A stretch of 42,713 nucleotides of DNA from Candidatus Aminicenantota bacterium (GCA_011049545.1 DRHQ01000062.1:1-42713), one strand, 5' to 3'; shown: positions 869-33,576, counted from the first letter of the stretch. Numbers and translations: made by a program. The notes: generated by a model not told the origin, from the letters alone.

Positions 869-967
869 ATGGAGGATAAAATCTCTTTTAACTTAATGCT
901 GGCTAGTCTCTCCCAATTGTTTGGAGAAAAAATAGCTTTGCAACCTAAGAAAAATAGAAAAAAATGA
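869..967 (+). CDS. Possible 32-residue ORF coupled to the caspase gene
   Basis: An ATG-started frame of 32 codons ends in an ATGA overlap with the start of the caspase gene (ATG 964, TGA 965-967). The peptide is MEDKISFNLMLASLSQLFGE followed by a Lys/Arg-rich tail. The upstream sequence has only a weak ribosome binding site. The 4-base overlap is the same type used elsewhere in this region (8563, 10404, 13426), which suggests translational coupling, but the ORF is too short to be certain. No family recognised. Confidence 0.3.
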   Translation: MEDKISFNLMLASLSQLFGEKIALQPKKNRKK

Positions 968-2394
968 AAAAATCGATTGTTTTTATATCATTATTTCTCT
1001 TATTTTCTGTTTATCTTTTATCTGCAAGGAGAGCGCTCATTATTGGAATTGATCACTATAAGTATAATGATATATATGGAGGGAAACTCGATCTTAGAGG
1101 TTGTACGAATGACGCGCTTGATATTAAAAACATCTTAATAGAGAAATTCGATTTTAAAGAAACTGAAATGCGCCTTCTTTTAAATCAAGATGCTACTAAA
1201 GAGTCAATACTGGAAGGATTTCAATGGCTAGTTCGAGAAACAAAACCTCAAGACTGGGTAGTTTTTAGTTTTTCGGGCCATGGTAAACAGATTCAAGATT
1301 TAAATGGGGATGAAGAAGATGGCCTTGATGAATGTATCTGTCCTTATGACGTAGAGCCAAGATATCTTTTAAACCTAATATCAGATGATGATATTAATCA
1401 GTTTATCATTAAGCTGAAGGACCGCCGTGCTTTTTTTCTTTTTGACTCCTGTCATTCTGGCACAATAAAGCGAGGAATTTCACCCGAAGCAAATGGGATA
1501 AACAAAGAAGGATATTTTGCTCGTATTCTCCCTTCTCCTGACTTGTTAGAGGAAGAATCACAGTATCGTGGGAAACAAACCCATAAATATTACGCCGAGT
1601 CAACAAAAGATGTTAAATCTGGAGTTGATTTTGCTCAAGGCAAAGGTGAGATTTTAGTATTCTCTGCATCAGCTCCCCATCAGGTTGCAATCCCTATAAA
1701 CATAAATAGTGATCATCCAAATGGAGCAATGACATATTCAGTTTTAAAAGGACTTGAAGGAGGAGCTGATAAGAATAATGATGATGTAATTACATATCGG
1801 GAACTACTTCAGTTTTCAAGAGATTATTTGAAAGGTTTAAAATTGAAACAGGAACCTCAGATTGATGCGGAACCTGGAAAAATCGACAAGCCGATATTCT
1901 TCCTCACTCCCCAGGCTGAGTTATCAAACCTAATTAATTCATCCAGCTCGTTTAGCATAAATCTCAGGTTATTTGGAGGAACCTCGAATAAAATTAAACT
2001 GAAAGATCATGTTGAATTTTATGTTGACAGTGAAAAAAGCGGTTACCTTTATCTCTTTGCAATATCTGTTGATGGAGAAGTATGTTGCCTTCTTCCCAAT
2101 CTTTACCAGAAGGACAATCATATAGAAGCGAGGGAAGGGATTATAATACCTCCATTTGATGGAAAATTTTCCATAGAAACTGTTGAACCTCTTGGAAAAA
2201 TGAGGACATTAGCAATTGTCGCAAAGAGACCGCTTGACTTGGCCAGGTTTTGCGGTAGCAGAGAAGATGAATTATTACATACACTTGGAAGTGATGAACT
2301 TAAAGAACTAGTTCGTTCCACTCGAGGGATAGCAAGAGTTCTTTCGCAAGCTGAGTGGGCAGCCGCCGTTCTTGAAATATATATTGTTAAATAG
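964..2394 (+). CDS. Exported caspase-fold protease with C-terminal DUF4384
   Basis: The 476-residue protein begins with a signal peptide (about residues 1-20). A peptidase C14 (metacaspase/caspase) domain follows directly: a RALIIGID first strand, the catalytic His in SGHG (H106), and the catalytic Cys in FDSCHSG (C163). Acidic loops after each (NGDEEDGLDE, ending near 123) are typical of Ca-dependent metacaspase-like enzymes. Residues from about 330 to the end match the DUF4384 pattern (FYVDSEKSGYLYLF, then a PPFDGKFSIE stretch and late LAIVAKRPL), a module often fused to secreted caspases. It likely cleaves substrates in the periplasm or at the cell surface; the substrate is unknown. It is the first large gene of a seven-gene operon and is followed by a second caspase. 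Both catalytic residues are present, so activity is plausible. Confidence 0.9.
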   Translation: MKKSIVFISLFLLFSVYLLSARRALIIGIDHYKYNDIYGGKLDLRGCTNDALDIKNILIEKFDFKETEMRLLLNQDATKESILEGFQWLVRETKPQDWVVFSFSGHGKQIQDLNGDEEDGLDECICPYDVEPRYLLNLISDDDINQFIIKLKDRRAFFLFDSCHSGTIKRGISPEANGINKEGYFARILPSPDLLEEESQYRGKQTHKYYAESTKDVKSGVDFAQGKGEILVFSASAPHQVAIPININSDHPNGAMTYSVLKGLEGGADKNNDDVITYRELLQFSRDYLKGLKLKQEPQIDAEPGKIDKPIFFLTPQAELSNLINSSSSFSINLRLFGGTSNKIKLKDHVEFYVDSEKSGYLYLFAISVDGEVCCLLPNLYQKDNHIEAREGIIIPPFDGKFSIETVEPLGKMRTLAIVAKRPLDLARFCGSREDELLHTLGSDELKELVRSTRGIARVLSQAEWAAAVLEIYIVK

Positions 2395-2449
2395 TATTTA
2401 AATTAATGTTTTTAATTAGAAATTTTATAAATATGGTTTGGAGGCTAAA

Positions 2450-3640
2450 ATGAAAAAAGGTGTCCCTATTATTTTATTAATATTTCTAATTTCAACCTGC
2501 CTTTTCTCCCAACAGAGGAGTTTTAAAGTTGTCGCAAAGTCTAATACCGGGGAAACAGTAAATCTTTATAAGGACTTGTATGCGTTGGTGATAGGAGTAT
2601 CAGATTACCAATATGGATGGCCTGATCTTCCTAATGCTGTCCGTGATGCTGACGAGATAGGAGATGTATTATCAGATCTAGGTTTTAAAGTGACAAGAGT
2701 AAAAGATCCTACCAAAAATGAGCTCATGACGGCGTTTGATGATTTTATTTTTAATGTCGGTCAGGGGAAAGATAATTGTCTGGTGATATTTTTTGCTGGA
2801 CACGGCCATACTGAAAAATTGGCTTATGGAGAAGACATGGGATACATAGTTCCAAGGGATGCACCAAATCCTGATGAAGATATGTCAGGTTTTAAATTTA
2901 AAGCTATCGACATGCACACTGTTGAGGCTTACGCAAGGAGAATAGAAGCTAAACATGCATTATTTCTATTTGACAGCTGCTTCTCAGGGGCAATTTTTAA
3001 CATATCGAGGGCAAAACCGCCACTATACATTAGCTATAAAACAGCAAGACCCGTGAGGCAATTTATCACAGCTGGAGGAGCAGATGAGCCAGTTCCAGAT
3101 AACAGCATATTTAAAAGGCAGTTCATAGAAGCTCTTCAAGGCGAAGCTGACCGTAATGAGGATGGTTATGTAACGGGAACAGAACTTGGAGAATTTCTGC
3201 AGGAGAAGGTAGTTGTATATTCACGCGAGGCCCAGCATCCTCAATATGGTAAGATTCGTGATCCAAGTCTTGATAAAGGAGATTTCGTTTTTCAGCTGAG
3301 GAGCAAGCCAGATGAAACAATACAATACAAGCCAGATGAAACAATACAATACAAGCCAGATGAAACAATACAATACAAGCCAGATGAAACAATACAATAC
3401 AAGCCAGATGAAACAAAACAAGAAATAGGTTATGGATATTTAATAATCAGTTCTTACCCTCCTACTGAAGTAGAAATAGATGAGAGGCGTTATAGAGTAG
3501 CCCCGCCTCTAATTGAGATCAGATTGCTTGCAGGAAGACACACAATAAAGTTTTTTAATAAGGAACTAAGGATTGAAAAAACAATAGTGATTGAGCTTTT
3601 AAAAGGCGAAAGAAAAAGAATTCATGAAAGGTTTAATTAA
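2450..3640 (+). CDS. Exported caspase-fold protease with PEGA-like C-terminus
   Basis: I place the start at ATG 2450 because GGAGG (2440-2444) sits 5 bases upstream; a TTG at 2438 would overlap this site. The 396-residue protein has a signal peptide (about 1-20). Its C14 caspase domain opens with YALVIGVSDY and has His in AGHG (H118) and Cys in FDSCFSG (C177). After the protease comes a tandem run of the octapeptide KPDETIQY (four exact copies and a partial fifth), then a PEGA-like domain (GYLIISSYPPTEVEIDE... LLAGRHTIKF), a small beta module common in surface proteins. It lies 55 bases after the first caspase and 33 bases before the large NHL protein. The pair differ in C-terminal module, suggesting division of labour. 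Substrate unknown. Confidence 0.88.
   Translation: MKKGVPIILLIFLISTCLFSQQRSFKVVAKSNTGETVNLYKDLYALVIGVSDYQYGWPDLPNAVRDADEIGDVLSDLGFKVTRVKDPTKNELMTAFDDFIFNVGQGKDNCLVIFFAGHGHTEKLAYGEDMGYIVPRDAPNPDEDMSGFKFKAIDMHTVEAYARRIEAKHALFLFDSCFSGAIFNISRAKPPLYISYKTARPVRQFITAGGADEPVPDNSIFKRQFIEALQGEADRNEDGYVTGTELGEFLQEKVVVYSREAQHPQYGKIRDPSLDKGDFVFQLRSKPDETIQYKPDETIQYKPDETIQYKPDETIQYKPDETKQEIGYGYLIISSYPPTEVEIDERRYRVAPPLIEIRLLAGRHTIKFFNKELRIEKTIVIELLKGERKRIHERFN
3305..3418 (+). repeat. 24-bp tandem repeat in the second caspase gene
   Basis: Four identical 24-base units (3305-3400) and a degenerate fifth (from 3401) encode KPDETIQY repeats. The units are identical at DNA level, which points to recent slippage. 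Because 24 is a multiple of three, copy-number change alters only the length of the linker between protease and PEGA-like domain. Confidence 0.95.
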
Positions 3641-3673
3641 GATAGAAAGACCTGAGTAAAGGATAGCAAGAAA

Positions 3674-6600
3674 ATGAATCATGATATTTTCCAATCTAAA
3701 CTATTGATCATTAGTGTCATTTTTCTTTTCATTCTTCTTATTTCTTCAGATGTATTGCCGAAGAATAATGTTTCTGCCCAGCGCGATGTTGATAGATTAA
3801 TTCGAGAAGGGAAAGATTTATACAAAAATGGAGAGTACCGAGAAGCAATAGTAAAATTCTTAGAAGCAAAGGACTTAGCTCGAACAAGAGAAGAGATTTC
3901 CGAAGTTTATTTCAATCTTTCCACGGCCTATTATGCCAGTAACCAGAGTGTCGAGGCAAAACAGCATCTCCAGAAATCACTTGAAACTCTGCCTGAAAGA
4001 ACAATTGATGCTAGGTATTATTCCGCGGATTTTGTGGAGATGTTTAACGAGACGAAGGCAGAATCTATAAAACTTAAAGAGAAAGAAAAAAGGCCTATTG
4101 TAAAGGCAAAGCCTGCAGTAGAGAAGAAGGTAAAGAAGGGTGGTGGAGGATTACTTATAATATTAGGAGTGCTGGTACTAGGTGGAGGGGCAGCAGCATT
4201 CTTGTTGGGGGGGAAGGGTAGTGATGGAGGCGGTAACGGTAATGGAACTCCGGCTGCCGTATATGGCAGTATTCAGGTGCTTTCCTCACCAACAGGAGCA
4301 CAGGTATTTCTTGATGGAAGCGATACAGGGAGTACAACTAATACCACATTAACCAATGTATCTCCCGGGAGTCATACTGTAGATCTGGTTATGGAAGGAT
4401 ATGAAGATGATCAGGTTTTTGTCTCAGTAACAGCCGGGCAAACAGCAACGGTTAGTGTAACACTCACAGAACCAACCATAACAGTGCTCGAGTTGCCAAT
4501 CGGTACTGTTTGGACAACGGGAGAAGGAGTAGAGATAAAGTGGGGAGTCAGCGGGTCAGGAGCTTCTCAGGCTGTTGTGAGTACAGGTGCCGGATTAGAT
4601 CCTTTAATAAATCAAGGAGGAAGAGCATTATCTCGGTTTCAAAGAAGATCTTTTCAGGAGAGGCGTTTTCTGCGAAGTGCCCTAAAGGAGAGAAGAAGCT
4701 CAGAGGATGTAGATTCATATGGAAATCGGGGAATGCTCTCAAGTAACACATCCGAACCTCAAGGTATTTCAGGAGAGATTTCTTCCTCTGTAAAAGAAGG
4801 TGATATTGTTCATGAAAGAGCAAAAGATATAAGGGATATAAAGAGAAACAGCAGAGTTGGAATAATAAATGCCCCTGTTGTTCCGCAGATATCTAGTGGT
4901 AAATTCAGGCCATCAGGGGATATAAGAGTGTTAGGTTTGTCAAATGTGAAGATTGATTTGTACAAAGGGAGTACCTTTAATCAAACAATTGTATCGAGCA
5001 CAGAGAATGACGGCTCATATCTATGGACAGTGGACCCGTCTCTTGCAGATGGGACAGACTATAAAGTAAGAATCTTAAGTACCAGCGATTCCAGTGTGTA
5101 CGGAGAGAGTGATGCATTTGAAATTAATTCTGTCGACATAAGCGAAGCAGTTGATAATTCTGATTTAGCTTGGAGTACAGGCGGAGATGCTGATTGGTTT
5201 GGGCAGGCAGGCTCTTACTACTATGATGGTGATGCATTGCAGAGCGGTGCGGTATCTGATAGTCAGCTGTCATATGTCCAAACCACAGTTACAGGGGGGC
5301 CGGGGAGTCTAAATTTCTATTGGAAAGTCTCTTCGGAAAATACATTTGATAATTTAACCTTCTATGTAGATGGTGTGGAAGTGCCAAATTATCAGATTAG
5401 CGGAGAGGTGGATTGGGAGCAAAAAACTTACTCAATTGGCGGGGGATCGTATCTTGTAAAGTGGGAATATAAAAAAGATTCCTCACTAAGTTCTGGATCG
5501 GATTGTGGATGGTTAGATAAAGTAGAGCTCATACTGGACAACACTATAACAATAACAAATCCCACAAGCAGCACTACCTGGACCAAGGGGAATCCAGCTG
5601 ATATCACCTGGACCTCTACAGGATCGATCACTAATGTAAAAATTGATCTATATAAAGGAATCACCTTGCAGGAAACGATTATATCAAGCACAGCGAATGA
5701 TGGGACATATACATGGGCTACAGTGAATTCAGCTCTAGCGGATGGTACAGATTATAAAGTGAGGGTATCGAGCACCACTGATTCCGGGCTTTATGATGAG
5801 AGTGATGCATTCACAATTGAGGGAAATTCTATAACCGTTACTGAACCCACAAGCAGCACATCTTGGACCCAGGGGAATCCAGCTAATATCACCTGGACCT
5901 CTACAGGATCGATCACTAATGTAAAAATTGATCTATATAAAGGAATCACCTTGCAGGAAACGATTATATCAAGCACAGCGAATGATGGGACATATACATG
6001 GGCACAAGTGAATTCAACTCTAGCGGATGGTACAGATTATAAAGTGAGGGTATCGAGCACCACTGATTCCGGGGTTTATGATGAGAGTGATGCCTTCACA
6101 ATTGAGGGAAGGTCTATAACGGTGACATCTCCAACAAGTGCTGATATTTGGAGCACAGGTCAGTTAGTAAACGTCACCTGGACGTCTTCAGGTGCAGTCA
6201 GCAATTACGTAGATCTTGATGTATACAAGGGAACTACCCTAGTTGGGTATGCATCTTCTATAGATAATGATGGAATTTTTTCATGGTTAGTGGATTCATT
6301 CTATGTAGAAGGGACAGATTACAAAATAAGAATTTCAGATGATACTGATGCGAGTATTTATGGTGAAAGTGGCATTTTTACTTTAAATCATGGTTATGAA
6401 TATGTCCATCAATGGGGTAGTTATGGAAGTGTAGATGCTCTGTTTGATGATCCTTGCGATGTGGCAGTAGACAGTTCTGGTAATGTGTATGTGACTGATA
6501 GTACTAATCACCGCATCCAGAAATTCACATCTGATGGGACTTTTTTGATAAATTGGGGCAGCAATGGAAGTGGAGATGGCCAGTTTAGCTTTCCTTATGG

Positions 6601-7372
6601 AGTAGCAGTGGACAGTTCTAATTATGTATATGTGGTTGATTATGGTAATCACCGTGTCCAGAAATTCACATCTGGTGGGACGTATGTAACCCAATGGGGC
6701 AGCAATGGAAGTGGAGATGGCCAGTTTTTTTATCCTCAAGGGATAGCGGTAGACAATATTGGTTATGTGTATGTTTGTGATGCTGGTAATGACCGAATGC
6801 AGAAATTTACATCAACTGGATTGTTTGTGATAAAATGGGGCAGCTATGGAAGTGGAGATGGGCAATTTAACTATTCAACTGGAATAGCGGTAGACAGTAA
6901 TCGTTATGTATATGTGGCTGATCAAGGCAATAACCGAATCCAGAAATTTTATTCTGATGGGACGTTTGCGACAAAATGGGGCAGCTATGGAAGTGGAGAT
7001 GGGCAGTTTGACTATCCCACTGGAATAGCGGTAGACAGTTCTAATAATGTATATGTGTCTGATAGTTTTAATGACCGCATCCAGAAATTCAGACCTGATG
7101 GGACGTGGGTAACAAAATGGGGCAGCTTTGGAAGTTTAGATGGCGAGTTTAATTGGCCTGAGGGGCTAACAGTAGACAGTTTCGGTTATGTATATGTGTC
7201 TGATTTTTATAATTACCGCATCCAGAAATTCCAGGCAATTGATACAAGCTCTAGCTTATCTCTTAATAGTCCCAGGATCATAAAAAGTTATTTAGGTCCG
7301 ATTAAAAGCTCTAAAACAAGACCTAATAAAAGCAGAACTCCTCTTACAAGAAGACCAAGAAATAAGAAATAG
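3674..7372 (+). CDS. Giant TPR / PEGA / Ig-like / NHL beta-propeller envelope protein
   Basis: This 1232-residue protein has a signal or anchor segment (about 9-28), TPR-like helices (about 40-105), a Lys-rich stretch and a Gly-rich membrane segment (159-178). Then come a PEGA domain (197-267, YGSIQVLSSPTGAQVFLDG), Ser/Thr-rich Ig-like domains resembling the Kre9/KNH type (TWT...NPANITWTSTG...VKIDLYKG), a jelly-roll-like region (about 490-625), two near-identical Ig-like repeats, a third diverged one, and six NHL repeats (about 908-1190) forming a probable six-bladed propeller. The tail is basic (RPNKSRTPLTRRPRNKK). The first Ig-like domain is interrupted by about 125 Arg/Ser-rich residues (297-420). 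It probably acts as a surface scaffold or ligand-binding protein served by the neighbouring caspases. Exact role unknown. Confidence 0.85.
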   Translation: MNHDIFQSKLLIISVIFLFILLISSDVLPKNNVSAQRDVDRLIREGKDLYKNGEYREAIVKFLEAKDLARTREEISEVYFNLSTAYYASNQSVEAKQHLQKSLETLPERTIDARYYSADFVEMFNETKAESIKLKEKEKRPIVKAKPAVEKKVKKGGGGLLIILGVLVLGGGAAAFLLGGKGSDGGGNGNGTPAAVYGSIQVLSSPTGAQVFLDGSDTGSTTNTTLTNVSPGSHTVDLVMEGYEDDQVFVSVTAGQTATVSVTLTEPTITVLELPIGTVWTTGEGVEIKWGVSGSGASQAVVSTGAGLDPLINQGGRALSRFQRRSFQERRFLRSALKERRSSEDVDSYGNRGMLSSNTSEPQGISGEISSSVKEGDIVHERAKDIRDIKRNSRVGIINAPVVPQISSGKFRPSGDIRVLGLSNVKIDLYKGSTFNQTIVSSTENDGSYLWTVDPSLADGTDYKVRILSTSDSSVYGESDAFEINSVDISEAVDNSDLAWSTGGDADWFGQAGSYYYDGDALQSGAVSDSQLSYVQTTVTGGPGSLNFYWKVSSENTFDNLTFYVDGVEVPNYQISGEVDWEQKTYSIGGGSYLVKWEYKKDSSLSSGSDCGWLDKVELILDNTITITNPTSSTTWTKGNPADITWTSTGSITNVKIDLYKGITLQETIISSTANDGTYTWATVNSALADGTDYKVRVSSTTDSGLYDESDAFTIEGNSITVTEPTSSTSWTQGNPANITWTSTGSITNVKIDLYKGITLQETIISSTANDGTYTWAQVNSTLADGTDYKVRVSSTTDSGVYDESDAFTIEGRSITVTSPTSADIWSTGQLVNVTWTSSGAVSNYVDLDVYKGTTLVGYASSIDNDGIFSWLVDSFYVEGTDYKIRISDDTDASIYGESGIFTLNHGYEYVHQWGSYGSVDALFDDPCDVAVDSSGNVYVTDSTNHRIQKFTSDGTFLINWGSNGSGDGQFSFPYGVAVDSSNYVYVVDYGNHRVQKFTSGGTYVTQWGSNGSGDGQFFYPQGIAVDNIGYVYVCDAGNDRMQKFTSTGLFVIKWGSYGSGDGQFNYSTGIAVDSNRYVYVADQGNNRIQKFYSDGTFATKWGSYGSGDGQFDYPTGIAVDSSNNVYVSDSFNDRIQKFRPDGTWVTKWGSFGSLDGEFNWPEGLTVDSFGYVYVSDFYNYRIQKFQAIDTSSSLSLNSPRIIKSYLGPIKSSKTRPNKSRTPLTRRPRNKK
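5551..6120 (+). repeat. Recent 285-bp duplication of an Ig-like domain
   Basis: The block 5594-5717 recurs at 5879-6002 with a single base difference visible, and similarity continues on both sides, giving a 285-bp (95-residue) period. A third, diverged unit follows to about 6390. The near identity marks a recent in-frame duplication. Confidence 0.9.
6395..7237 (+). repeat. Six NHL-coding repeats of about 141 bp
   Basis: Each unit encodes a strand set of the form QWGS-x-GSGDGQF, then GIAVDSS-x-x-VYVxD, then N-x-RIQKF. The units are diverged at DNA level but share long identical runs around TGGGGCAGC and GGAAGTGGAGATGG. Six units are the usual number for a closed NHL propeller. Confidence 0.85.
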
Positions 7373-7386
7373 AAAAAATAGAAGAA

Positions 7387-7881
7387 GTGAAAAGAAGTAA
7401 TAAAGCTGTTATTTCTTTAATTGCCATAATTTTTTTGTGTATTGCTTGTTTTGGGCAAGAGCAAAAGCCTAAAGAACAATCTAAGCTAGATAATAAATTT
7501 ACCTCGCTACAAAAATCACTCCTAATCCCAGGCTGGGGACAGCTAGCAGAAAAGAGATATCTGGAAAGTGCCTTATTTTTATCAGCAGAAATATTTTGTA
7601 TCTATAAGATATTTTCAAATAACCACAAAAGTAATGATTATTATGGCCTTTACAAGACAGCAGATAATACCACTGATGCCGTTAGTTACAGAGATTTAAC
7701 AGAAAAATATGATATCAGGAGGAATAAGTTTTTACTTGCTGCTGCAGGCATCTGGATTATAAATTTGATTGATATTTATATTATTGTTAAAAAGAAAGAG
7801 AAAAAGAGTAGAAACCTCAAATTAAAATTAGAACACAATGAAAACAAAACTCTCTTTTTTACTATATCTTATAGTTTTTAG
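7387..7881 (+). CDS. DUF5683-like small membrane protein
   Basis: The GTG-started 164-residue protein has an N-terminal signal/anchor ending in an IACFGQEQ stretch. A DUF5683-type core follows: SLLIPGWGQLAEKRYLESAL leads into a hydrophobic helix, and a second membrane helix lies near residues 117-137 (AAAGIWIINLIDIYIIV). The PGWGQ motif before a helix is the hallmark of this family, whose function is unknown. It begins 14 bases after the NHL protein stop codon and overlaps the next gene by 44 bases in another frame. It is probably an accessory membrane protein of the operon. Family call is from the motif only. Confidence 0.7.
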   Translation: MKRSNKAVISLIAIIFLCIACFGQEQKPKEQSKLDNKFTSLQKSLLIPGWGQLAEKRYLESALFLSAEIFCIYKIFSNNHKSNDYYGLYKTADNTTDAVSYRDLTEKYDIRRNKFLLAAAGIWIINLIDIYIIVKKKEKKSRNLKLKLEHNENKTLFFTISYSF

Positions 7882-8566
7882 TCTTTTCCTTCAGCCTTCC
7901 TGTCAGGACCGTCTTTTTGACAATCCCTATGATCCTCTGGCGGGAGAGATTGTCTTTGAGGTGGTCAGCACAATTTCAACTCCTTCTTATGTGCCTTTGG
8001 GCCTTTGCTGGGACGGCAGTACCATATGGAGCGTTGATGGCTATAATGATACTCTTTACAGCCTGAATCGGTTAAGTGGAGCTCAGGTACGAGCCTTAAC
8101 CTCTCCTCTGCAGGCAACAACAGGTGTAGCCTACGATGGCCGGGACCTCTGGGTGTGCAGTGAATCGTATGTTGATATATATAAAATAAATATATTAAAC
8201 GGGGAGGTCCAGAAGAGACTCAATCTGCAGAGAGGATCTTTTACTGCCATTGAATACGGTCTGGGCTCGTTATGGTTAGCAGACTATCAATCGAACAAGA
8301 TACTAAGGATTGACCCGGAAACAGGGGAGATAATATCCTCTTTTCCCAACCCTGGTATTCTGGTGGACGGTTTAACTTTTGCTGGGGGCAGTTTCTGGAT
8401 ATCTGATTCTTCAAACCTTACAATCTACGAATTAACAACTGAGGGAAGTGTTTTAAGGACCTTTCTCTCCCCCGGGCAGTCACCACGAGGGCTGACCTTT
8501 GATGGACATTATTTATGGAATGTGGACGGAAGTGGAAAAATTTATCAGTTGAGCTTTAGAGAGTGA
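7838..8566 (+). CDS. Exported beta-propeller protein, possible lipoprotein
   Basis: The 242-residue protein starts with a clear signal peptide (MKTKLSFLLYLIVFSLFLQ) ending at PSC, a non-canonical lipobox. Repeating blocks of about 40 residues follow with LWVC, LWLAD, FWISD and LWNVDG motifs, each after a GLTFDG- or GVAYDG-like turn. This is a beta-propeller pattern seen in glutaminyl-cyclase-like and NHL-like proteins. The start is supported by the signal peptide, although it lies 44 bases inside the preceding gene and has no good ribosome binding site, implying reinitiation. The stop overlaps the next start (GTGA). Likely a periplasmic or outer-membrane-anchored binding protein; ligand unknown. 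Confidence 0.75.
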   Translation: MKTKLSFLLYLIVFSLFLQPSCQDRLFDNPYDPLAGEIVFEVVSTISTPSYVPLGLCWDGSTIWSVDGYNDTLYSLNRLSGAQVRALTSPLQATTGVAYDGRDLWVCSESYVDIYKINILNGEVQKRLNLQRGSFTAIEYGLGSLWLADYQSNKILRIDPETGEIISSFPNPGILVDGLTFAGGSFWISDSSNLTIYELTTEGSVLRTFLSPGQSPRGLTFDGHYLWNVDGSGKIYQLSFRE

Positions 8567-10407
8567 GTAAACAGAAAAAAATTCCATTAATTCTGATATT
8601 TTTCTTTGTTTTATCTCCATTTTTATTAGCTTCAGAGAAAATACTAATAAATTTAGAAGGAAACTATTTAGCTTATAGTTATGATTATCGTCAGATTTAT
8701 GGAGAAAATGTTAAATTCGAGTTTTCTTTATATGAGGTTTCTTGCCAGTACATAAAGATAGATGTGGCTTCCCGGACTTTTTATGCATATGGGAATATTG
8801 TTTTAAAAAAGGAAAATGAGATAATTTCAGGTGATGAGTTTTTATTTGATCCTAAAAAAAATATTGGAAAACTTATCAGTTATAAAGAAGGTGTTGAAAT
8901 TAAAAAAATAGGAGATGAAGGCAGTGAGATTGCTCTCTCTAAAAACAATATTCTGGATGAGTTAAGTTTATCGAAAATTAAAAAATCATTCATTTATTTT
9001 ACCGGGAAATTATTTCAGATAAATAAAAATTTTGAAATCTATGGATTCAATGTGGGGCTTTATTTAGAGGGCATAGAGTCAATAGGATTTAAAAAATTTA
9101 AATTATCCGGAGGGTTTCATCAAAGAAGAAACGGGATTTCCTTAAATAGAATTTGGTATACAAGGTCCCAGGGCATAATAGGTAGATTAAGTTATTTATA
9201 TGAAAAAGAGAAAAAGATTAACACTATAACCCAGCTCAATTATGAAGAACATTCTGTTTTAAAGGACTATTCCGGGCTTAAGCGGCAGATAGATGTAATG
9301 AGCTCAACAACCATAAATTTTAATGAAAATTTAAATCTTGGCCTGACAGGGAACTATAATTCTGGTGGCCTGTGGAATACACGCTTATGGCTAAATAAGA
9401 AATGGAGCAACAAGGTTAATACACAGGTAGACGTTCTTTACAACAAGCCAATAAACCTTCAAGGAGAAGCATGGGTTGGTTTTCAGTCAAACATAAACGC
9501 GAATAAATTTGGAAATATTTCTTTTGTAGGCAAATACGGAATTCAAAATCAGGTGTTAAGCAATATTTCATATAGAAATACTTTTTTAAAGAAGATTAAT
9601 TTTCTTTTATCTTCATCCTATTCAAAAGTAAAAATAGGAAGAAATGGCGATTACTCAAAAATATTCTCTGGAGGAATTAATCTTTCATATAGTTCCCGGA
9701 TATTTAATCTTTCCACGGACTATTATTTGAATTATGACCTTTTTGGGGACCAGCTCTTATCACAGCCGCAGCTAAGATTAGGGCTAAATCCCTTTAATTT
9801 TTTTGGAGGCTTATTATCAGCCAGTATCTATAATATATTTATTTACAATAATTTGAATAAAGGGGAAATTCATGAGGACAATTACAGTAATAATACAGTA
9901 TTCAACCTGTCAACTAAACCTATTTTTGTCCAGAAAAGTTTCAGTTTGAATTTCAACATTGCTTTAGAGCAGTTTGTTGAGAAGGAAGGCAGAAATTTTA
10001 CTTCCGGTGGATTTATTGTAAATGCTAATAAAGGTTTAATAAAAGGAGTTTCTGTTGGGGGATTATATAATATTCAATCGCGGAGAAAAACTAAGTCATG
10101 GCTAATCGAAGGGACAACCAGCCAGAACTTAAGCGCTGTCTTAAAAGTAAATCCCTCAAAAAGATTAAATGGGTGGGTTTCTTTTTCCTTCGATCCAAAA
10201 AATAGCACCTGGAGGCAGTCGTTTGTAGATGTTTCAATCGAATTATTTAGAAATTGGAAATTTCACTCATTACTCAATTATGACTTTATTTTAAAAAAAA
10301 TAAATAACGTTGATTTATATATAATCAGGGAAGCCGGTCAGTTTCAGTTAAGGTTTGTCTGGCGGAGCCTTTCAAAGCAATTTATGGTGGAACTGGTTCC
10401 AAGATGA
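8563..10407 (+). CDS. OstA/LptD-like outer-membrane beta-barrel protein
   Basis: The GTG start overlaps the previous stop by 4 bases. The 614-residue protein has a signal peptide (about 1-23). An OstA-type N-terminal region (about 30-130) has alternating short strands and the phrases FYAYGNIVLKKENEIISGDE and LFDPKKNIGKL, as in LptA/LptD beta-jellyroll domains. From about 180 onward there are many amphipathic strands rich in Asn, Tyr and Ser (for example ISLNRIWYTRSQGIIGRLSY), as expected for a barrel. It ends in a short strand (QFMVELVPR). It is shorter than the usual LptD of about 780 residues and sits with caspases rather than lipid A genes. It may therefore be a specialised export or assembly barrel for this operon. 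That role is inference. Confidence 0.7.
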   Translation: MSKQKKIPLILIFFFVLSPFLLASEKILINLEGNYLAYSYDYRQIYGENVKFEFSLYEVSCQYIKIDVASRTFYAYGNIVLKKENEIISGDEFLFDPKKNIGKLISYKEGVEIKKIGDEGSEIALSKNNILDELSLSKIKKSFIYFTGKLFQINKNFEIYGFNVGLYLEGIESIGFKKFKLSGGFHQRRNGISLNRIWYTRSQGIIGRLSYLYEKEKKINTITQLNYEEHSVLKDYSGLKRQIDVMSSTTINFNENLNLGLTGNYNSGGLWNTRLWLNKKWSNKVNTQVDVLYNKPINLQGEAWVGFQSNINANKFGNISFVGKYGIQNQVLSNISYRNTFLKKINFLLSSSYSKVKIGRNGDYSKIFSGGINLSYSSRIFNLSTDYYLNYDLFGDQLLSQPQLRLGLNPFNFFGGLLSASIYNIFIYNNLNKGEIHEDNYSNNTVFNLSTKPIFVQKSFSLNFNIALEQFVEKEGRNFTSGGFIVNANKGLIKGVSVGGLYNIQSRRKTKSWLIEGTTSQNLSAVLKVNPSKRLNGWVSFSFDPKNSTWRQSFVDVSIELFRNWKFHSLLNYDFILKKINNVDLYIIREAGQFQLRFVWRSLSKQFMVELVPR

Positions 10408-10868
10408 AAAGAAATATAATAATTGTGATTTTACTCATGTTATCCAGTTTTTTTGGAAGCTGTATTACTCTTAGACCCAAACACATTTTTCCTCCTGATA
10501 ACCAGGTTGAAGGTATTCATTTATGCAAAGGAATGGAAGATAGCGGAGATTTACTTAAGCCTGTGGATATTCAATCCGATTTCACTTCTAAAGACGATCA
10601 TATAAACTGTTTTATAAAATTAAAAGATGTTTCAATAAAGATACGCCTCAGATGGAAATGGTATTCTCCTGATAAAAAAATGTTCAGGGATACCGGCGAT
10701 ATAATAGTAAATCAGAATGAGGAATATCTTGGAGTTGTGACAGCGTATGATATGCTCCAGCTTACTCCCGAAAGTAAGAATGAAGGACAGTGGACAGTTG
10801 TTGTTTTTATGAATGATAAATTTATTGGGAGAAAAACGTTTCAGGTAAGACCTCTTAAGTTGAGCTAA
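10404..10868 (+). CDS. Small predicted lipoprotein
   Basis: The 154-residue protein overlaps the barrel gene by ATGA. Its signal peptide ends at a lipobox-like FFGSC (Cys20). The rest is a compact beta-rich domain containing IRLRWKWYSPDKKMF and a late QWTVVVFMNDKFIGRKTF strand pair. This resembles the small Ig-like modules that report how a part modifies a response, but I do not recognise a named family. As last gene of the operon and next to the barrel, it may be a partner lipoprotein, as LptE is for LptD. That comparison is only positional. Confidence 0.65.
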   Translation: MKRNIIIVILLMLSSFFGSCITLRPKHIFPPDNQVEGIHLCKGMEDSGDLLKPVDIQSDFTSKDDHINCFIKLKDVSIKIRLRWKWYSPDKKMFRDTGDIIVNQNEEYLGVVTAYDMLQLTPESKNEGQWTVVVFMNDKFIGRKTFQVRPLKLS

Positions 10869-11167: not shown

Positions 11168-13429
11168 ATGAAGGAATGTGAAGCATGCGGCAAATGTCTG
11201 GATGATAGCCAGACTAATTGCCCTTGTGGTGGGTCCTCTTTGGATGTTCATCTGAATGGCTCCTCAATTATAGATGGCAAATACCTCCTGGAGCGCTGCC
11301 TGGGCAGGGGAGGGATGGGTGCTGTTTACAAGGCGCAGCACATTGAACTCCAAAAATTCTTTGCATTGAAGCTTATCAAGCATTCAATTGTTGCAGATCC
11401 CTCATATCTTGCTCGTTTTCGAACCGAGGCAAAAGCACTAGGAAAACTTGAGCATCCGAATATCATTCAGGTTACCGACTACGGGATAGACTCCAGAGGC
11501 GACGGCATACCATATCTGGTGATGGAATACCTAGAGGGAGACACAATGCTCAATCGTTTTCGTAAAGAAGGTTTTCTGGAGCTTGAGCAGGTTTTTCCCA
11601 TCTTGAAGTCAATTGCAAGCGCCATAGATTATGCCCACACCTGCGGTATTCTTCACCGTGACCTTCACTTAAAAAACGTTTTTCTAGTGCACGATTTTTC
11701 CGGTAAGCCACAGGTCAAGATTTTGGATTTTGGGCTTGCCCGGATCACAAGTGAGAATACATTAAGAAAAGAAGAGAAAATCCCTCGTAAGCCAATACCT
11801 CATATTGATAAAGTGTCTGAGACAGATGAAACAAGAACATATATTATGCAAGAAAACGGGGCAGACGATCTGACTCTGGAGGAGACCATTCCCGTATCTT
11901 TATCAGAAGAATCCAAGACAGATAACGTTAGCAGATTGACTCAACGGGGCACAGTCATGGGAACTCCCGGTTATATTCCGCCTGAGCTCTTTAGAGGGGT
12001 TAGTGCAACAACTGCATCTGATATATATTCTTTTGGTGTTCTGATTTATGAGGCTCTCGTCAGGCAGAAGCCTTATGGAAGCTCAATGAACCTGGAGGAT
12101 ATGCCTGAAACGCCACCAATTCCCTCAACATTACAGGACACTGTTCCCAGGGAACTGGATGAGGCAATAATTCTCCCCATCCAAAAAGAGCCGGAAAAAC
12201 GACCCAAAAAAGCAATGGATGTTGTTCGTAATATTCAAAATGCTTTTGACGGGTATCGATACCGGATGTGGCGAATCAATGAGGTGCCAAAACGGATACA
12301 AATAGCAGGGGTGTTAACGCTTGCTTTTGTTTTACTTTTTTTATTGCTTTCGAACCTGACGACATTCCGAAATATTGAAAACTATCTGGTGGACCTTCAT
12401 TTCCAGCTGATGCCGCTACATCCTCCTGATGATCGGATATTGATTGTTTCAGAAGATGAAGCAACGCTGGAGGCAGATCGCACGCCATTTGCGGATAAGG
12501 CAGATGAAGTGGGTCTTCTTCTCCAGAAAGTGATGGATGCCGGAGCCAGAGGTGTTGCCATTGATTTTATCCTGCCGGAAAGATGGAATAAGTCAGAAAA
12601 TTTTGCAAAACTTGTACTTAGAAATCAGGGGAAATTAATACTTGCCAGTTATATCAGGAAAGACAGCAGCATTATAGGAATGGAGTGTATCGGAGGGCTT
12701 ATAATGGCTGGCCTGGGATCAATGGAGCGCGCCCAGGAACTTTTTGGATTTCTGAACATGCAGCCAGACACTGATGGTTATATTCGTCACACCCAATTAG
12801 GACTCCTTAACCAGGATGGACAAAGTATGTATTCTATGCCTGCAAGAGCCTTTCAGATTCTGGCTGGCAGTGATATCCCCCGGGAGCGGGCTTTACGGCG
12901 TTTATTAATTGACTATTCGATAGACCGGACCAAATTTCAGAGATTGTCATGGAAAGATCTTCCATTGTCTCTAAATGATAATCCTGACATGTTTCGGGAC
13001 AAAATAGTTCTGGTCGGAGGAGAATACGAGGGATCACAAGATTTTCACAGGGTTCCTTTCAGGTCGGGTTTGAGCAATGAGGAGATTTCAGGACTTACTA
13101 TTCATGCCTTAACAATTAACACACTCTTATTGGATAACCTCGTCCAAAATGTCAGTAGATCATGGGTTTTACTACCAATGGCAGTTGTTATGATGTTTTT
13201 TTCGGCGGCCTTTCTTATCCGGCGCAGGGTATTTTTTCCTCTTATTATCCTTGTATTAATTTTAATAGGATATATCTTAATTGTTTATTTCTTGTTCATA
13301 TGGAATCGACTGTTGCTTCCAGTGGGAGTGCCGCTTATAACTTTAATAATTGTTTTGCTGCCGATTATATTTATACGGCGCAAGATTACTTTTATATCGA
13401 AACCTTCGATGGAGGTACAGGAAAAATGA
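11168..13429 (+). CDS. Ser/Thr protein kinase with zinc ribbon and CHASE2 sensor
   Basis: This 753-residue protein has an N-terminal zinc ribbon (C4, C7, then C18 and C20) and a kinase domain with a GRGGMG loop (46-51), ATP-binding K68, HRD (163-165), N170 and DFG (187-189). A membrane helix (377-396), a CHASE2 extracytoplasmic sensor (about 400-660; VAIDFILPERW and a late DKIVLVGG) and C-terminal helices follow, ending in a basic tail. Two oddities are visible. The catalytic loop reads HRDLHLKN, with His in place of the usual Lys. About 60 extra acidic, Thr/Ser-rich residues (200-258) also lie between DFG and the GTPGYIPPE segment. It probably senses an envelope signal and phosphorylates cytoplasmic targets. 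The stop overlaps the FecR-like gene (ATGA). Confidence 0.9.
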   Translation: MKECEACGKCLDDSQTNCPCGGSSLDVHLNGSSIIDGKYLLERCLGRGGMGAVYKAQHIELQKFFALKLIKHSIVADPSYLARFRTEAKALGKLEHPNIIQVTDYGIDSRGDGIPYLVMEYLEGDTMLNRFRKEGFLELEQVFPILKSIASAIDYAHTCGILHRDLHLKNVFLVHDFSGKPQVKILDFGLARITSENTLRKEEKIPRKPIPHIDKVSETDETRTYIMQENGADDLTLEETIPVSLSEESKTDNVSRLTQRGTVMGTPGYIPPELFRGVSATTASDIYSFGVLIYEALVRQKPYGSSMNLEDMPETPPIPSTLQDTVPRELDEAIILPIQKEPEKRPKKAMDVVRNIQNAFDGYRYRMWRINEVPKRIQIAGVLTLAFVLLFLLLSNLTTFRNIENYLVDLHFQLMPLHPPDDRILIVSEDEATLEADRTPFADKADEVGLLLQKVMDAGARGVAIDFILPERWNKSENFAKLVLRNQGKLILASYIRKDSSIIGMECIGGLIMAGLGSMERAQELFGFLNMQPDTDGYIRHTQLGLLNQDGQSMYSMPARAFQILAGSDIPRERALRRLLIDYSIDRTKFQRLSWKDLPLSLNDNPDMFRDKIVLVGGEYEGSQDFHRVPFRSGLSNEEISGLTIHALTINTLLLDNLVQNVSRSWVLLPMAVVMMFFSAAFLIRRRVFFPLIILVLILIGYILIVYFLFIWNRLLLPVGVPLITLIIVLLPIIFIRRKITFISKPSMEVQEK

Positions 13430-14328
13430 AAAAATGGGGAAGAAACATGGGTTTGGTAGCTATCATTTTTCTTTTCATTATGGGATGCCTTTCTTTGGGA
13501 TATTCGTCTGATACTGAAGAAAAAGTAGCTATAGTATGCTTTTCGGAAGGGAAAGCATGGCTCACTGAACCTGGTGAGAGAGAACGGAGTGAAATTAATC
13601 TTTTTGATTGGATAAAAATTGGAACTGTCATTCAAACAGAACTTGAAGCCAAGGTGGTTATCGCCTTTTCCACCGGTGACCGATACGAACTCAGGGGAAA
13701 GACGAAAGCAACTGTGGGTCAGGAGGGATTTATTTCCTCCTCTGGAACGCTGAACAAATTAGAGTCAGTGCCTGTAATGCCACAAATCGCAGCTATTTCC
13801 CAGGAAGCCAGTCCTGGAAGCAGGTTGGGTGGTATCCGGCTGAGAGGTCCAAAAGGATCAATTTCAAAATTCTATCCAAGTAAAGGAACGACGTTGCTTG
13901 CCGAAGAAGCGGTTTTAACTTTTGAGCCTATCTATGGGGTAAAAAAATACAAGGTTGAAATCAAAGACGAATGGGGAAATAAGATCTTTTCTATAGAAAC
14001 AGGTTCTACAAAGATTGCTACTTACCCGAGCGTACTCAAGTCTGGTGCAAATTATTCCTGGAAAGTGTGGATACTGGAGAAAAGGGAGCCTTCCATATTG
14101 TCTGAAGCAGTTTTTTCAACTGTCAGCGAGGAGAATACCCGGGCCAGAAACGCCTTTAAAGCACAAGCATATCAATCAAAAGATGGGATAAAGCTTCTGC
14201 TTCTTGCTCAACTGGATATGGCTTTGGGGCTTTGGAAAGAAGCCTGTGAGACGTTAAATGACGCCCTGGCTCTCTTCCCAGATAATGAGGAAATAAAAAG
14301 TGCCATGTTCCAGATTGGCTGTAAATAA
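13426..14328 (+). CDS. FecR-like domain lipoprotein coupled to the kinase
   Basis: I choose ATG 13426, which gives a 4-base ATGA overlap with the kinase stop and exposes a signal peptide ending at FIMGC, a plausible lipobox. An upstream start at 13162 would lie inside the kinase gene and encodes only a shadow frame. The 300-residue protein has a FecR-like beta domain (about 30-105: EGKAWLTEPGE, DWIKIGTVIQTE, a VVIAFSTGDRYEL strand, then TVGQEG). An Ig-like region (YKVEIKDEWGNKIFS... YSWKVWI) and a single TPR-like C-terminal hairpin follow. FecR-like proteins are often linked to CHASE2 sensors, so it is probably a ligand-binding partner of the kinase. Confidence 0.8.
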   Translation: MKKWGRNMGLVAIIFLFIMGCLSLGYSSDTEEKVAIVCFSEGKAWLTEPGERERSEINLFDWIKIGTVIQTELEAKVVIAFSTGDRYELRGKTKATVGQEGFISSSGTLNKLESVPVMPQIAAISQEASPGSRLGGIRLRGPKGSISKFYPSKGTTLLAEEAVLTFEPIYGVKKYKVEIKDEWGNKIFSIETGSTKIATYPSVLKSGANYSWKVWILEKREPSILSEAVFSTVSEENTRARNAFKAQAYQSKDGIKLLLLAQLDMALGLWKEACETLNDALALFPDNEEIKSAMFQIGCK

Positions 14329-14497: not shown

Positions 14498-16384
14498 ATG
14501 AAACCAAAATATTTGTTTTTAATTATCTTGCTTATTTTTGGAATATCATCCAATGTCTATGCAGTATCTTACTGGGTGATACAAAAAAATACACAGCGTC
14601 TTTTACATATCCAAAAGGATGCCGATAAAGTAACAATAGTCGAATCGTATACTGTTATTGACTCCCAGGCAGATTATGCTGTTAATCCAAAAGATAACAC
14701 ATGCTGGGTTACATCAGCTTTTCAGGGACAGGTAAGGCGCTATGGCAAAGCTGAGCCAATTGTCGTAAGCAGTTTTGGTGCTCCAATGTCGCTTGCTTTA
14801 GATGCTGAAAGACAGATTATGTGGGTTGCAGATGGGGCTTTGAACAAGATTGTTAAGATGAGGCTTGATGACGGTACATTGGAGAAGCATGTACAGCTTA
14901 GTACACCATCGAGAAGCATAGCTTCAAGAGCAGATGGAGGTTTATGGATAGCAACAAAATATGGATTGATTGTACTTAACTCTGACGGAGAGGTAATAAA
15001 GGAATTCGAGCGAAAAGCTAAATATCTATCATCTGGCCCTGGGAAAAACTCTGTTTGGTTAGTAAATCCTGTTGACAATAATATTATGCATCTGGACGGA
15101 GATGGAAACATACTGGCAGAGGGCAAATTGAAAACTCTTTCTGGGCTTATTGCTACTAAAGATGGAGGCTGTGTATTGCTGGGAAGGGAGGTTGTATTCC
15201 AATTAGACGCTGATGGAGATCTTATCGGCACAATGCAAGGATTAGACCATCCATCCCGCATTGTTTATCAACCAGAGGATGAAAGCGTATGGATTTTACA
15301 CTCTAGAGACAGCCAGCTTGTACAACTACCTATGAAAACAGGACAGAAACCATTAACTGTTATTGCTGGATTGGGAAGAGGCAATCTCAGGGTTGAACCT
15401 GCCGAAAAAATTCAGTGGATATCTGAAGCCATAGAACCTGAGAGTCAGCAACCTGAAACGCCAGAAGAAGAAAAACCACTTGAAAAGATTAAGGTCCCAG
15501 AGAAGATTGAGCCTGAGAAAAAGGATACGACCAAGCCTGAAGTTGTGCCCGAGAAAAAAGATGCGATTAAGCCTGAAACTGAGCCTGAGAAAAAGGATAC
15601 GACCAAGCCTAAAGTTGAACCTGAAAAAAAAGAATCAGCCGTGAAGCCTGAAAAACAAGAGCTTAAAGAGATGCCCAAGCCAACTGTTGTACCTGCGCCA
15701 ACTACTTCTACACTCCTATCCGAGCCTCCAAAGTTTAAAGATGGCGGTGTCATGCTTGCTAGACTTCATGAAGGTCTAAGTTCTACACGTTTAAAAAATG
15801 TTCCCCAGGCCCTCGGAAGAAGGTATGTCTGGAATTTTGAAGGTGCGACCTTTACTCTGCTTTTAGGGCTTTCAGTAGAAGTATACAACAGTTATACAAA
15901 CAGAGGACGTGCAGAATGGGTGGAAATGCTTGCAGAAGGCGTTCATGCTGCAAAGCCTATTGCTGAAGAGTTCAAAAAGCTTGCAAAAAAACACAACTGG
16001 AATGCCGAACAAATCGCCAATTTTGTTCTCTCTTTTGTGCAATGTCTTCCTTACACAGTCGATGATGTAAGCACAGGAATAGATGAATTTCCACGCTTTT
16101 CCATAGAAACACTGGTCGCTGGAGGTGGAGACTGCGAAGATACTACAATCCTGGCTGGAAGCATTTTTTTAGTTTTAGGTTATGATATTGTATGTTTAAA
16201 TCCCAAAGGACATCTTGCTCTTGGGATAGAAGGTAAATTCCCTGGTTCCTACTATAAACACAATGGAAAACGATACCATTATTCAGAGACAACCGGCACA
16301 GGTTGGGAAATCGGGAATTTGCCAGAAGTTTACCGAGGAGTTTCCGTTACTATCTATGAAATTCCAAAGAAATTAACTAAATAA
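14498..16384 (+). CDS. Exported beta-propeller protein with transglutaminase-like domain
   Basis: The 628-residue protein has a signal peptide (1-22, ending VYA). A propeller-like region (about 25-290) shows repeated W-containing blades (NTCWVTSAF, IMWVADG, GLWIATK, SVWLVNP, SVWILHS). Next is a Lys/Glu/Pro-rich linker (about 313-400) with repeats of the type PEKKDTTKPE, and finally a transglutaminase-like cysteine domain with GGGDCEDT (C546) and GHLALGI (H572). Such domains are thiol proteases or crosslinkers acting outside the cytoplasm. The linker suggests a spacer across the periplasm or wall. It starts the third cluster, 15 bases before an LPP20 lipoprotein. Substrate unknown; both the Cys and His are present. 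Confidence 0.85.
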   Translation: MKPKYLFLIILLIFGISSNVYAVSYWVIQKNTQRLLHIQKDADKVTIVESYTVIDSQADYAVNPKDNTCWVTSAFQGQVRRYGKAEPIVVSSFGAPMSLALDAERQIMWVADGALNKIVKMRLDDGTLEKHVQLSTPSRSIASRADGGLWIATKYGLIVLNSDGEVIKEFERKAKYLSSGPGKNSVWLVNPVDNNIMHLDGDGNILAEGKLKTLSGLIATKDGGCVLLGREVVFQLDADGDLIGTMQGLDHPSRIVYQPEDESVWILHSRDSQLVQLPMKTGQKPLTVIAGLGRGNLRVEPAEKIQWISEAIEPESQQPETPEEEKPLEKIKVPEKIEPEKKDTTKPEVVPEKKDAIKPETEPEKKDTTKPKVEPEKKESAVKPEKQELKEMPKPTVVPAPTTSTLLSEPPKFKDGGVMLARLHEGLSSTRLKNVPQALGRRYVWNFEGATFTLLLGLSVEVYNSYTNRGRAEWVEMLAEGVHAAKPIAEEFKKLAKKHNWNAEQIANFVLSFVQCLPYTVDDVSTGIDEFPRFSIETLVAGGGDCEDTTILAGSIFLVLGYDIVCLNPKGHLALGIEGKFPGSYYKHNGKRYHYSETTGTGWEIGNLPEVYRGVSVTIYEIPKKLTK

Positions 16385-16399
16385 AAAGGAGGATTGTAC

Positions 16400-16963
16400 A
16401 TGAAACAAACAGGTACGCTTTTGACTTTTTTATTAGCTTCATTGATTCTTTTAACCAGTTGCGCGTCAGCCCCCACGGCACCTAAAACTACTGAGGTTAT
16501 TGTTCCCAGTTGGTATAGCACCCCACCCGTAGACGCAAATTATCTCTTTGTCCCGGCAACAGCACTATCACAAGATCTTCAGCATGCTGTGAACACTGCA
16601 AAAGAGGAAGCACGTGTAGGGATTGCCAGGGACATGAGAGTTAAGATTCAAGCGATGTTCAAAAGGTTCCGAGAAGAAACAGGTGTCGGTGAAGATGCTG
16701 AATTCTTGTCTATGGAAACAGATGCATCTAAGTCTATTGTTTCGGAAACCCTAGTCGGATGCAAGGCAAGAACCCAGAAAATCTTAAGAGAAGGCACTCT
16801 TTACCGAGTTTATGTGCTAATGGAATTACCGATCGGCGCAGCTAATGCAGAGATGCTTGCCAAGATTAAAGAAAACGAACGGATGTACACTCGTTATCGC
16901 GCTTCAGAGGCATTTAAGGAGTTAGAAGAAGAAGTAGAGAAGTACGAGAAGATCAAGAAATAA
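16400..16963 (+). CDS. LPP20-family lipoprotein
   Basis: I place the start at ATG 16400, with GGAGG (16388-16392) 7 bases upstream; a TTG at 16394 is closer to this site than is usual. The 187-residue product has a signal peptide with lipobox LLTSC (Cys21). An LPP20-like domain follows: VPSWYSTPPVDANYLFV, an alternating helix of A/R/E residues (NTAKEEARVGIARDM), and a strand with YRVYVLMELP. The C-terminus is a charged coiled-coil. LPP20 lipoproteins are outer-membrane proteins of unclear function, often near flagellar FlgO/FlgP-type genes. Two more members follow downstream. Confidence 0.85.
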   Translation: MKQTGTLLTFLLASLILLTSCASAPTAPKTTEVIVPSWYSTPPVDANYLFVPATALSQDLQHAVNTAKEEARVGIARDMRVKIQAMFKRFREETGVGEDAEFLSMETDASKSIVSETLVGCKARTQKILREGTLYRVYVLMELPIGAANAEMLAKIKENERMYTRYRASEAFKELEEEVEKYEKIKK

Positions 16964-17028
16964 CGAAACGCGCACTAAAAGATCGTTCAGGACGAGTGTA
17001 GATTAGAGATTGTAGAATACTACTTTCT

Positions 17029-17161
17029 CTGTCATTGCGACTGTATGAAATAAGCCCGGCAATCTCTATTTTGGACTGTCATTGCGAGGAGCGAAGCGAC
17101 GCGGCAATCTCTTAGATTAGTCGACTCTGATTTCCTCGCTCCCTGAGGACCTGCAATGACG
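17029..17161. repeat. Dispersed palindromic intergenic repeat (CATTGCGAGGAGCGAAGCGAC type)
   Basis: The motif CATTGCGAGGAGCGAAGCGA (17080-17099) continues to GGCAATCT at 17110. A truncated copy (CATTGCGACTG... GGCAATCTCT) lies just before, and an inverted, decayed copy (TCCTCGCTCCCTGAGGAC... GCAATGAC) follows to 17160. This element is known to me as widespread in many bacterial genomes. It fills most of the gap between 16964 and 17205; no gene is seen there. Confidence 0.8.
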
Positions 17162-17205
17162 ATGTAATGACTTCTATTGCTTTCATATAGGTAAATCTTT
17201 TTTCA

Positions 17206-18042
17206 ATGCGTTATGAATCTTCAAAAAGGAAGCGATTCGGTTCGCTGTTTTTTATTTTATTTTATTTTTTGCTGCCCACTCTATCTTGCCATAAAGCGAC
17301 TGTAAAGCCCCTAAGCAAGCATTATAAAGAAGAGCAGATACGCAAGTATTCCACCTACCCCAGATGGTTCTGGCAGATGCCACATAGCAACAATACTCTC
17401 TTTGCAGTTGGTTACGCACAGACATATTTTTATAGTGAATCTTCTATTGAAGAAGCAACTATGAATGGAATTAATAACTTAGCTAAATGCGTGTCTGCTA
17501 GAATCAAAGGCGAACGGGGCTTTAAGGATACAAAATTAGGCCCAGAATTTGCAGGAGAGTTTTTTAAAGAGGAGGTTGAAGGAGGCGTGTTAGATCTTGT
17601 AAAGAAAAATCACAAAGTAATCGCTACTGAAACGGTGGGTGACATAACACTTGTATTGTTGTGTACTGGTGAAGCTTCAACACTGTCTTCTGCAAAAGGA
17701 TTTGATCAAAAAGTCCCTGAATGGGTATCAAAACCCCCCAAAAAACCTGGTTTTGTATATGCTGTGGGGCAGTCTAGTCCACAATTTCATGAAGAAGAAA
17801 CCTGGCAGTTAGCTGAATATAATGCTCGAGTTGGCCTGGCGTTGTCATTTGTTGCTCAGTTGCGAAGTCTTGGTAAAAGGCTTGATCAACGTTTAAGCAC
17901 AGCCAGTGCAGTCAAAACCGATGTTGTTTTAAGACGAATTCAAGTTGTCGAGCGCTGGTGCGACCCAGAAAATAGAATTCCCTATGTGCTTGTGCGAATG
18001 ACGATTAAAGACAACAGAGAAAATAATCCAGAAAGCTTTTAA
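17206..18042 (+). CDS. Lipoprotein with two LPP20-like domains
   Basis: The 278-residue protein has a basic N-terminus, a hydrophobic segment and a lipobox-like LPTLSC (Cys28). Two halves each begin with the LPP20 entry motif: PRWFWQMPHSNNTLFAVGYAQ (first half) and PEWVSKPPKKPGFVYAVGQS (second half), each followed by an Ala-rich helix (EEATMNGINNLAKCV; WQLAEYNARVGLALS). This is a tandem arrangement of the fold seen once in the neighbouring proteins. It follows the repeat-filled gap and precedes the FlgO/DUF4384 protein by 128 bases. Probably periplasmic-facing; partner unknown. Confidence 0.75.
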   Translation: MRYESSKRKRFGSLFFILFYFLLPTLSCHKATVKPLSKHYKEEQIRKYSTYPRWFWQMPHSNNTLFAVGYAQTYFYSESSIEEATMNGINNLAKCVSARIKGERGFKDTKLGPEFAGEFFKEEVEGGVLDLVKKNHKVIATETVGDITLVLLCTGEASTLSSAKGFDQKVPEWVSKPPKKPGFVYAVGQSSPQFHEEETWQLAEYNARVGLALSFVAQLRSLGKRLDQRLSTASAVKTDVVLRRIQVVERWCDPENRIPYVLVRMTIKDNRENNPESF

Positions 18043-18170
18043 GAAATCCGATAAAATTAACTAATATAGCTTGAAGGAAGCTAAGATTTGCGGACATTGA
18101 TAAGCCGGTTATCGTTTTTAATGGCTATTTTTCAAGATTTTGCATTTTTACGGGATTGAGAGGCTAAATC

Positions 18171-20270: not shown

Positions 20271-20273
20271 GCC

Positions 20274-31081: not shown

Positions 31082-31118
31082 TCTTTTCGAGTCTATCAAA
31101 AGTTTATGTGAATATTCA

Positions 31119-33487: not shown

Positions 33488-33576
33488 ATCATAATTGTCC
33501 AATTCCTAAAGAGAAATCCAGAAAATCTAACACCTCTTTCCCCTGTCATTTATTAATTGGCAAGCCTGACCCTATA

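Follow-up and report, generated by a model that had tools for sequence, protein, structure and literature searches.

The window analysed here, a stretch of 42,713 nucleotides from Candidatus Aminicenantota bacterium, is a whole contig of the draft genome G000 (an Aminicenantes metagenome-assembled genome of 3.24 Mb, about 90% complete). Its seven-gene run at 964-10868 is a composite: a conserved cassette built around a paralogue of LptD (7387-10868) adjoins a separate local group of caspase and scaffold genes, and it is in this cassette, not in its link to the caspases, that the interest of the region lies. We put at about even the chance that this core, conserved in Aminicenantia, encodes a second outer-membrane translocon, one derived from LptD that would move an amphipathic lipid or glycolipid. 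Usually a genome encodes one LptD, dedicated to lipopolysaccharide (LPS). The genes of the core are as follows.

7387..7881, + strand: core gene 1, DUF5683 membrane protein (PF18935, E = 1.4e-8)
7838..8566, + strand: core gene 2, propeller lipoprotein with an invariant lipobox Cys22, then a (D/N)-NP-x-DP motif
8563..10407, + strand: core gene 3, LptD paralogue with an N-terminal OstA/beta-taco-like domain and a predicted 26-strand barrel (AlphaFold, Foldseek, profile-profile comparison)
10404..10868, + strand: core gene 4 (not universal), small lipoprotein with an Ig-like beta-sandwich (AlphaFold predicted local distance difference test score, pLDDT, 86)

The gene surroundings of the barrel were read in 40 other genomes, making 41 with the window genome. 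The propeller gene was found upstream of the barrel gene in all 40, across the class Aminicenantia, and in 38 of them a DUF5683 gene comes before the propeller gene; in the other two the contig ends first. Cys22 of the propeller lipoprotein is invariant in an alignment of 20 homologues, as is the lipobox Cys20 of the small lipoprotein in 17. The latter stands behind the barrel in about half of the genomes and is absent in many f11 genomes; its fold matches (PA1606, the Wzt carbohydrate-binding domain, PDE-delta) are generically Ig-like and were not taken as function. Because the outer surroundings of the cassette differ between genomes (ribosomal proteins and SecY, purine and tRNA-modification genes, KsgA, or GDPD/patatin, all named by eye), the conserved unit is the cassette rather than the region. 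Relatives of the barrel were found by sequence search in 26 of 99 near genomes, and the barrel profile matched 65 of the 142 genomes of the class, a few solely via the N-domain of a canonical LptD. When 396 genomes sampled evenly from the phylum were searched, full-length barrel matches were confined to this class; the other matches covered the N-domain only (model positions ~41-107) and lay within mostly LptD-sized open reading frames (ORFs). No description of the cassette was found in open-access papers.

The barrel protein of the window is matched by no Pfam or NCBIfam model, and the curated LptD models PF04453 and PF03968 match neither it nor 27 family members. An earlier note on this DNA had called it OstA-like, a reading without a library match that profile and fold comparisons uphold. 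The AlphaFold model (17 relatives, pLDDT 87, predicted template modelling score 0.61) has an N-terminal beta domain with strands over residues 27-182, the OstA-type (beta-taco/jellyroll) domain of an LptD, followed by the 26 C-terminal strands of an LptD barrel, spanning residues 191-613, the closure of which the model does not prove. In a Foldseek search the top 32 of 857 PDB matches were all LptD (best E = 1.9e-14); their TM-scores (0.28-0.39) are low, so either the domain arrangement or the barrel model is off. With VIA-align, LptD 9rpt_A aligned with 385 residues between 189 and 614, reaching the last residue, at Z = 15.4, and no other listed alignment was longer. Other large barrels (Mtr, TonB receptors) exceeded LptD in Z, aligned mostly over residues 187-546, so Z by itself fails to single out LptD. 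Searching the sequences of solved structures with the barrel profile yielded chance capsid matches only. Profile-profile comparison with the native LptDs of the class extended over 507 columns, taking in both N-domain and barrel (E = 2.6e-10, ~15% identity), and the hidden Markov model of the barrel family matched the N-domain of canonical LptDs phylum-wide. Profiles and model together show that the barrel is homologous to the LptD of this organism and predict that it retains the layout of an LptD.

The canonical LptD of G000 (731 aa) is encoded at C120, beside nucleotide-sugar genes. At C141 and C78, LptC and LptA appear to form a single protein (628 aa, with OstA repeats) encoded next to LptB, and one 784-aa protein combines LptF and LptG. 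The barrel as housekeeping LptD was rejected because the canonical LptD and the Lpt bridge are encoded elsewhere; the earlier note had allowed that the OstA-like protein might prove to be the sole housekeeping LptD of the organism, and it did not. Given the fold and profile homology together with the separate canonical LptD and bridge, the barrel is a paralogue of LptD and not the housekeeping copy. By an approximate count, ~39 of ~59 barrel-positive genomes also carry a Pfam LptD; since most of them do, the barrel is an addition to LptD and not its replacement. The cassette thus resembles the LptDE translocon in its OstA/beta-taco-type N-terminal domain, predicted barrel, significant profile homology and nearby accessory lipoproteins, whereas it departs from LptD in its low identity, its lack of Pfam LptD/LptD_N matches, a branch without gate prolines, a single Cys, its linkage to DUF5683 and propeller lipoprotein genes, and the existence of a canonical LptD besides.

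In the translocon that we propose, a periplasmic bridge would pass an amphipathic lipid or glycolipid to the N-terminal OstA-type domain, and the barrel would hand it to the outer leaflet. The DUF5683 protein would tie the system to the inner membrane. Both LptDs could be supplied by the genome's single LptB2FG-CA bridge, or a different bridge could be used. Assembly or gating may be the task of the propeller and Ig-like lipoproteins, on the analogy of LptE, LptM and LptY and of BamB. BamB is the propeller lipoprotein of the BAM complex, and the likeness, a propeller lipoprotein paired with a large barrel, is an analogy only: the partner barrel of the cassette is LptD-like and lacks POTRA domains. 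Accessory lipoproteins that tune LptD are known in LptM, at the gate, and LptY (formerly YedD), on the beta-taco (PMC12644819). Both are small lipoproteins of the outer membrane that bind an LptD and adjust it, and the cassette lipoproteins would resemble them in this. LptM, however, intercalates at the gate and LptY has a lipocalin fold, whereas the domains in the cassette are a propeller and an Ig-like one, and no sequence relationship is shown. The caspases may be an optional add-on to the translocon. A bolder version, in which Aminicenantia have a second lipid exporter with its own propeller and DUF5683 partners that carries a non-LPS surface glycolipid and is caspase-regulated in some lineages, is offered tentatively and seems to us somewhat doubtful. 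That a divergent LptD paralogue with fixed partners occurs across the class suggests that this widespread uncultured group has a second route for surface lipids, and the paralogue provides a natural contrast for finding out which LptD features (gate prolines, LptE, disulfides) lipid insertion needs.

Several observations weigh against such a translocon. The genome has no second LptFG and the cassette no Lpt bridge gene, and no protein of the genome matched the LptE-family models over cut-off; as the genome also holds a canonical LptD, its LptE may have diverged too far to be detected. The barrel has a single Cys (residue 61), which rules out an LptD-type inter-domain disulfide. Such a disulfide is not universal among LptDs. 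In addition, the Pro-rich gate motif of native LptD (IPIFYLPYMRYPL...TGFLMP), which a strict pattern detects in 8 of the 12 native LptDs from Aminicenantia, is lost in the window's branch: the native motif round strands 1 and 2, IPIFYLPYMRYPLDEERSTGFLMP, becomes the proline-free IESIGFKKFKLSGGFHQRRNGISLNRI in the window barrel. In LptD, gate opening has been associated with prolines in strands 1 and 2 (PMC8983717), and with these gone, lateral opening of the barrel may fail. The loss of these prolines, the lack of a detected LptE-family partner and the interaction folds of the lipoproteins would fit a closed structural or assembly barrel, its lipoproteins anchoring or nucleating a surface or periplasmic complex with no transport of lipid. 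We consider this unlikely, as the OstA-type receptor domain is retained family-wide and divergent barrel branches keep a GxPSxP version of the gate motif. The single LptFG and single LptC-LptA of the genome would also agree with an alternative LptD that shares the Lpt bridge and exports the same LPS under other conditions, or another form of LPS. That is quite improbable for a paralogue so old (class-wide) and so divergent from LptD (~15% identity), the more so as the partners of the cassette do not accompany the LptD at C120. A second translocon for an amphipathic lipid or glycolipid remains the reading that we prefer.

A further reading takes in the three genes upstream of the core.

964..2394, + strand: caspase 1, signal peptide (by eye), metacaspase-like Peptidase_C14 and C-terminal DUF4384 (PF00656, E = 4.7e-31; PF14326, E = 4e-17)
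2450..3640, + strand: caspase 2, signal peptide (by eye), paracaspase-like Peptidase_C14 and KPDETIQY repeats (PF00656, E = 3.3e-19)
3674..7372, + strand: scaffold with TPR, transmembrane segment, PEGA, Arg-rich insert, Ig-like (Kre9/KNH) repeats and NHL propeller (Pfam)

All seven genes could form one system: the caspases would cut the scaffold, at the Arg-rich insert for instance, and the barrel would bring the scaffold to the surface. The earlier note had proposed caspase processing or surface display of the scaffold through a dedicated barrel. The dedicated barrel is supported by conserved synteny and by its not being the sole LptD. The seven + strand ORFs at 964-10868 are indeed close-spaced, as the note had described them, with gaps of 55, 33 and 14 bases followed by overlaps of 44, 4 and 4, and both caspases appear to be exported and resemble Arg/Lys-specific proteases (metacaspases and MALT1). 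The linkage recurs in the genome G013, with three scaffold copies and extra caspases. Nevertheless, we judge the seven-gene system to be very improbable. Caspases flank the core in only 2 of the 41 genomes, G000 and G013, so that caspase-dependent display is unsupported as a system and the caspase-barrel linkage was rejected as a general one. The Arg-rich insert is also present in the scaffolds of G003 and G004 (FRRRALRSRHYFRSLIRTRR in G004), and no caspase was found in these genomes (81-87% complete), which weakens the insert as a caspase-specific substrate. The cargo of LptD-type barrels is lipid A-anchored glycolipid rather than protein, so no precedent is known for displaying the scaffold at the surface by this route.

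Both caspases match PF00656 over its cut-off and carry the catalytic His and Cys that the earlier note had reported, as SGHG/DSCHSG from residues 104/161 in caspase 1 and AGHG/DSCFSG from residues 116/175 in caspase 2, for which an alternative TTG start is possible at 2438. They were the sole Peptidase_C14 members found in G000. Pfam likewise bears out the other domains named in that note (TPR/PEGA/Kre9-KNH Ig/NHL and DUF5683). The closest solved relative of caspase 1 is yeast metacaspase-1 (Mca1; E = 9e-25) and those of caspase 2 are MALT1 paracaspase (E = 2e-8); by family resemblance, both exported caspases are probably Arg/Lys-specific. Peptidase_C14 with DUF4384 is a known architecture, seen in 23 of 473 cyanobacterial orthocaspases (PMC8283722). 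Caspase 1 has the same combination as these bacterial orthocaspases but seems to be exported, has a MALT1-like caspase and an envelope scaffold as its neighbours, and comes from a non-photosynthetic lineage. Shorter TPR/PEGA scaffolds with varied C-terminal parts precede the core in G003, G004, G029 and G095. At C107 of G013, three giant TPR/PEGA/Ig/NHL scaffolds stand in tandem with differing middles, one of them with a formylglycine-generating-enzyme-like segment by eye; the differing middles suggest rapid domain shuffling.

The same-strand run extends past the end given in the earlier note and, after a gap of 299 bases, goes on to 19793.

11168..13429, + strand: Ser/Thr kinase-CHASE2 protein (PF00069, E = 1e-40; PF05226, E = 7e-31; 79% identity in G013)
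13450..14328, + strand: FecR/TPR-like exported protein (weak TPR matches, FecR by eye only; 74% identity in G013)
14498..16384, + strand: exported NHL propeller and transglutaminase-like protein (domains by eye; 71% identity in G013)
16394..19793, + strand: three LPP20-like proteins (LPP20, E = 1e-6 for the first and 8e-9 for the last; all three in G013)

The last LPP20-like protein contains DUF4384 (E = 1e-7), as does caspase 1. Promoter and terminator scans gave no excess over shuffles, so the transcription units are putative.

A caspase of any kind was present in only 13 of 99 relatives. In G013 the block begins with caspase 1, caspase 2, two scaffolds, an inverted caspase 2-like gene and a third scaffold, and continues with the DUF5683, propeller, barrel and lipoprotein genes, the CHASE2 kinase, FecR, three inserted genes, the NHL/transglutaminase gene and the LPP20 genes. 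The caspases, the scaffold and the downstream CHASE2 kinase/FecR/LPP20 genes look like a module of their own, for envelope signalling or processing, that became attached to the core in this lineage, and its two exported proteases may trim the scaffold or another envelope protein under stress. G013 belongs to a different genus from G000, yet their barrels are 84% identical, against ~69% for the barrels of the same-genus G003 and G004, and the barrel tree pairs G000 with G013 (support 97/100). The LptFG fusion gives the opposite kinship to G000 (G003 84%, G013 79%). The core sits at a GDPD site in G003, G004 and G016; no core gene was found beside this site in G000 (270 bases upstream, to the C38 contig edge) or in the upstream flank of G002, and a hidden second core copy at the GDPD locus was rejected on these flanks. 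The discordance between barrel and LptFG, together with the core-free GDPD site, therefore suggests from sequence comparison that the entire block was gained horizontally in the G000 lineage. Mis-binning of the window contig may instead account for the pattern.

Beyond the envelope genes, the window holds several defence-like genes. HEPN-like and MNT nucleotidyltransferase-like genes adjoin at 19836-20672 (- strand), directly after the last LPP20 gene, and are likely a toxin-antitoxin pair; the second weakly matches PDC-S09. A subtilase and an AAA ATPase at 24446-27830 (- strand) gave strong matches to the anti-phage proteins IetS/IetA (PADLOC, E = 1e-229 and 9e-126). At 29618-32543 (+ strand), McrB-like AAA and McrC-like genes, identified by eye, are likely a modification-dependent restriction system, the first being a PADLOC match to a type II restriction enzyme. 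Interspersed with these genes are short transposase-like ORFs (28200-28646 and 33484-33873), which suggest that the DNA downstream of the envelope block is mobile or a defence island.

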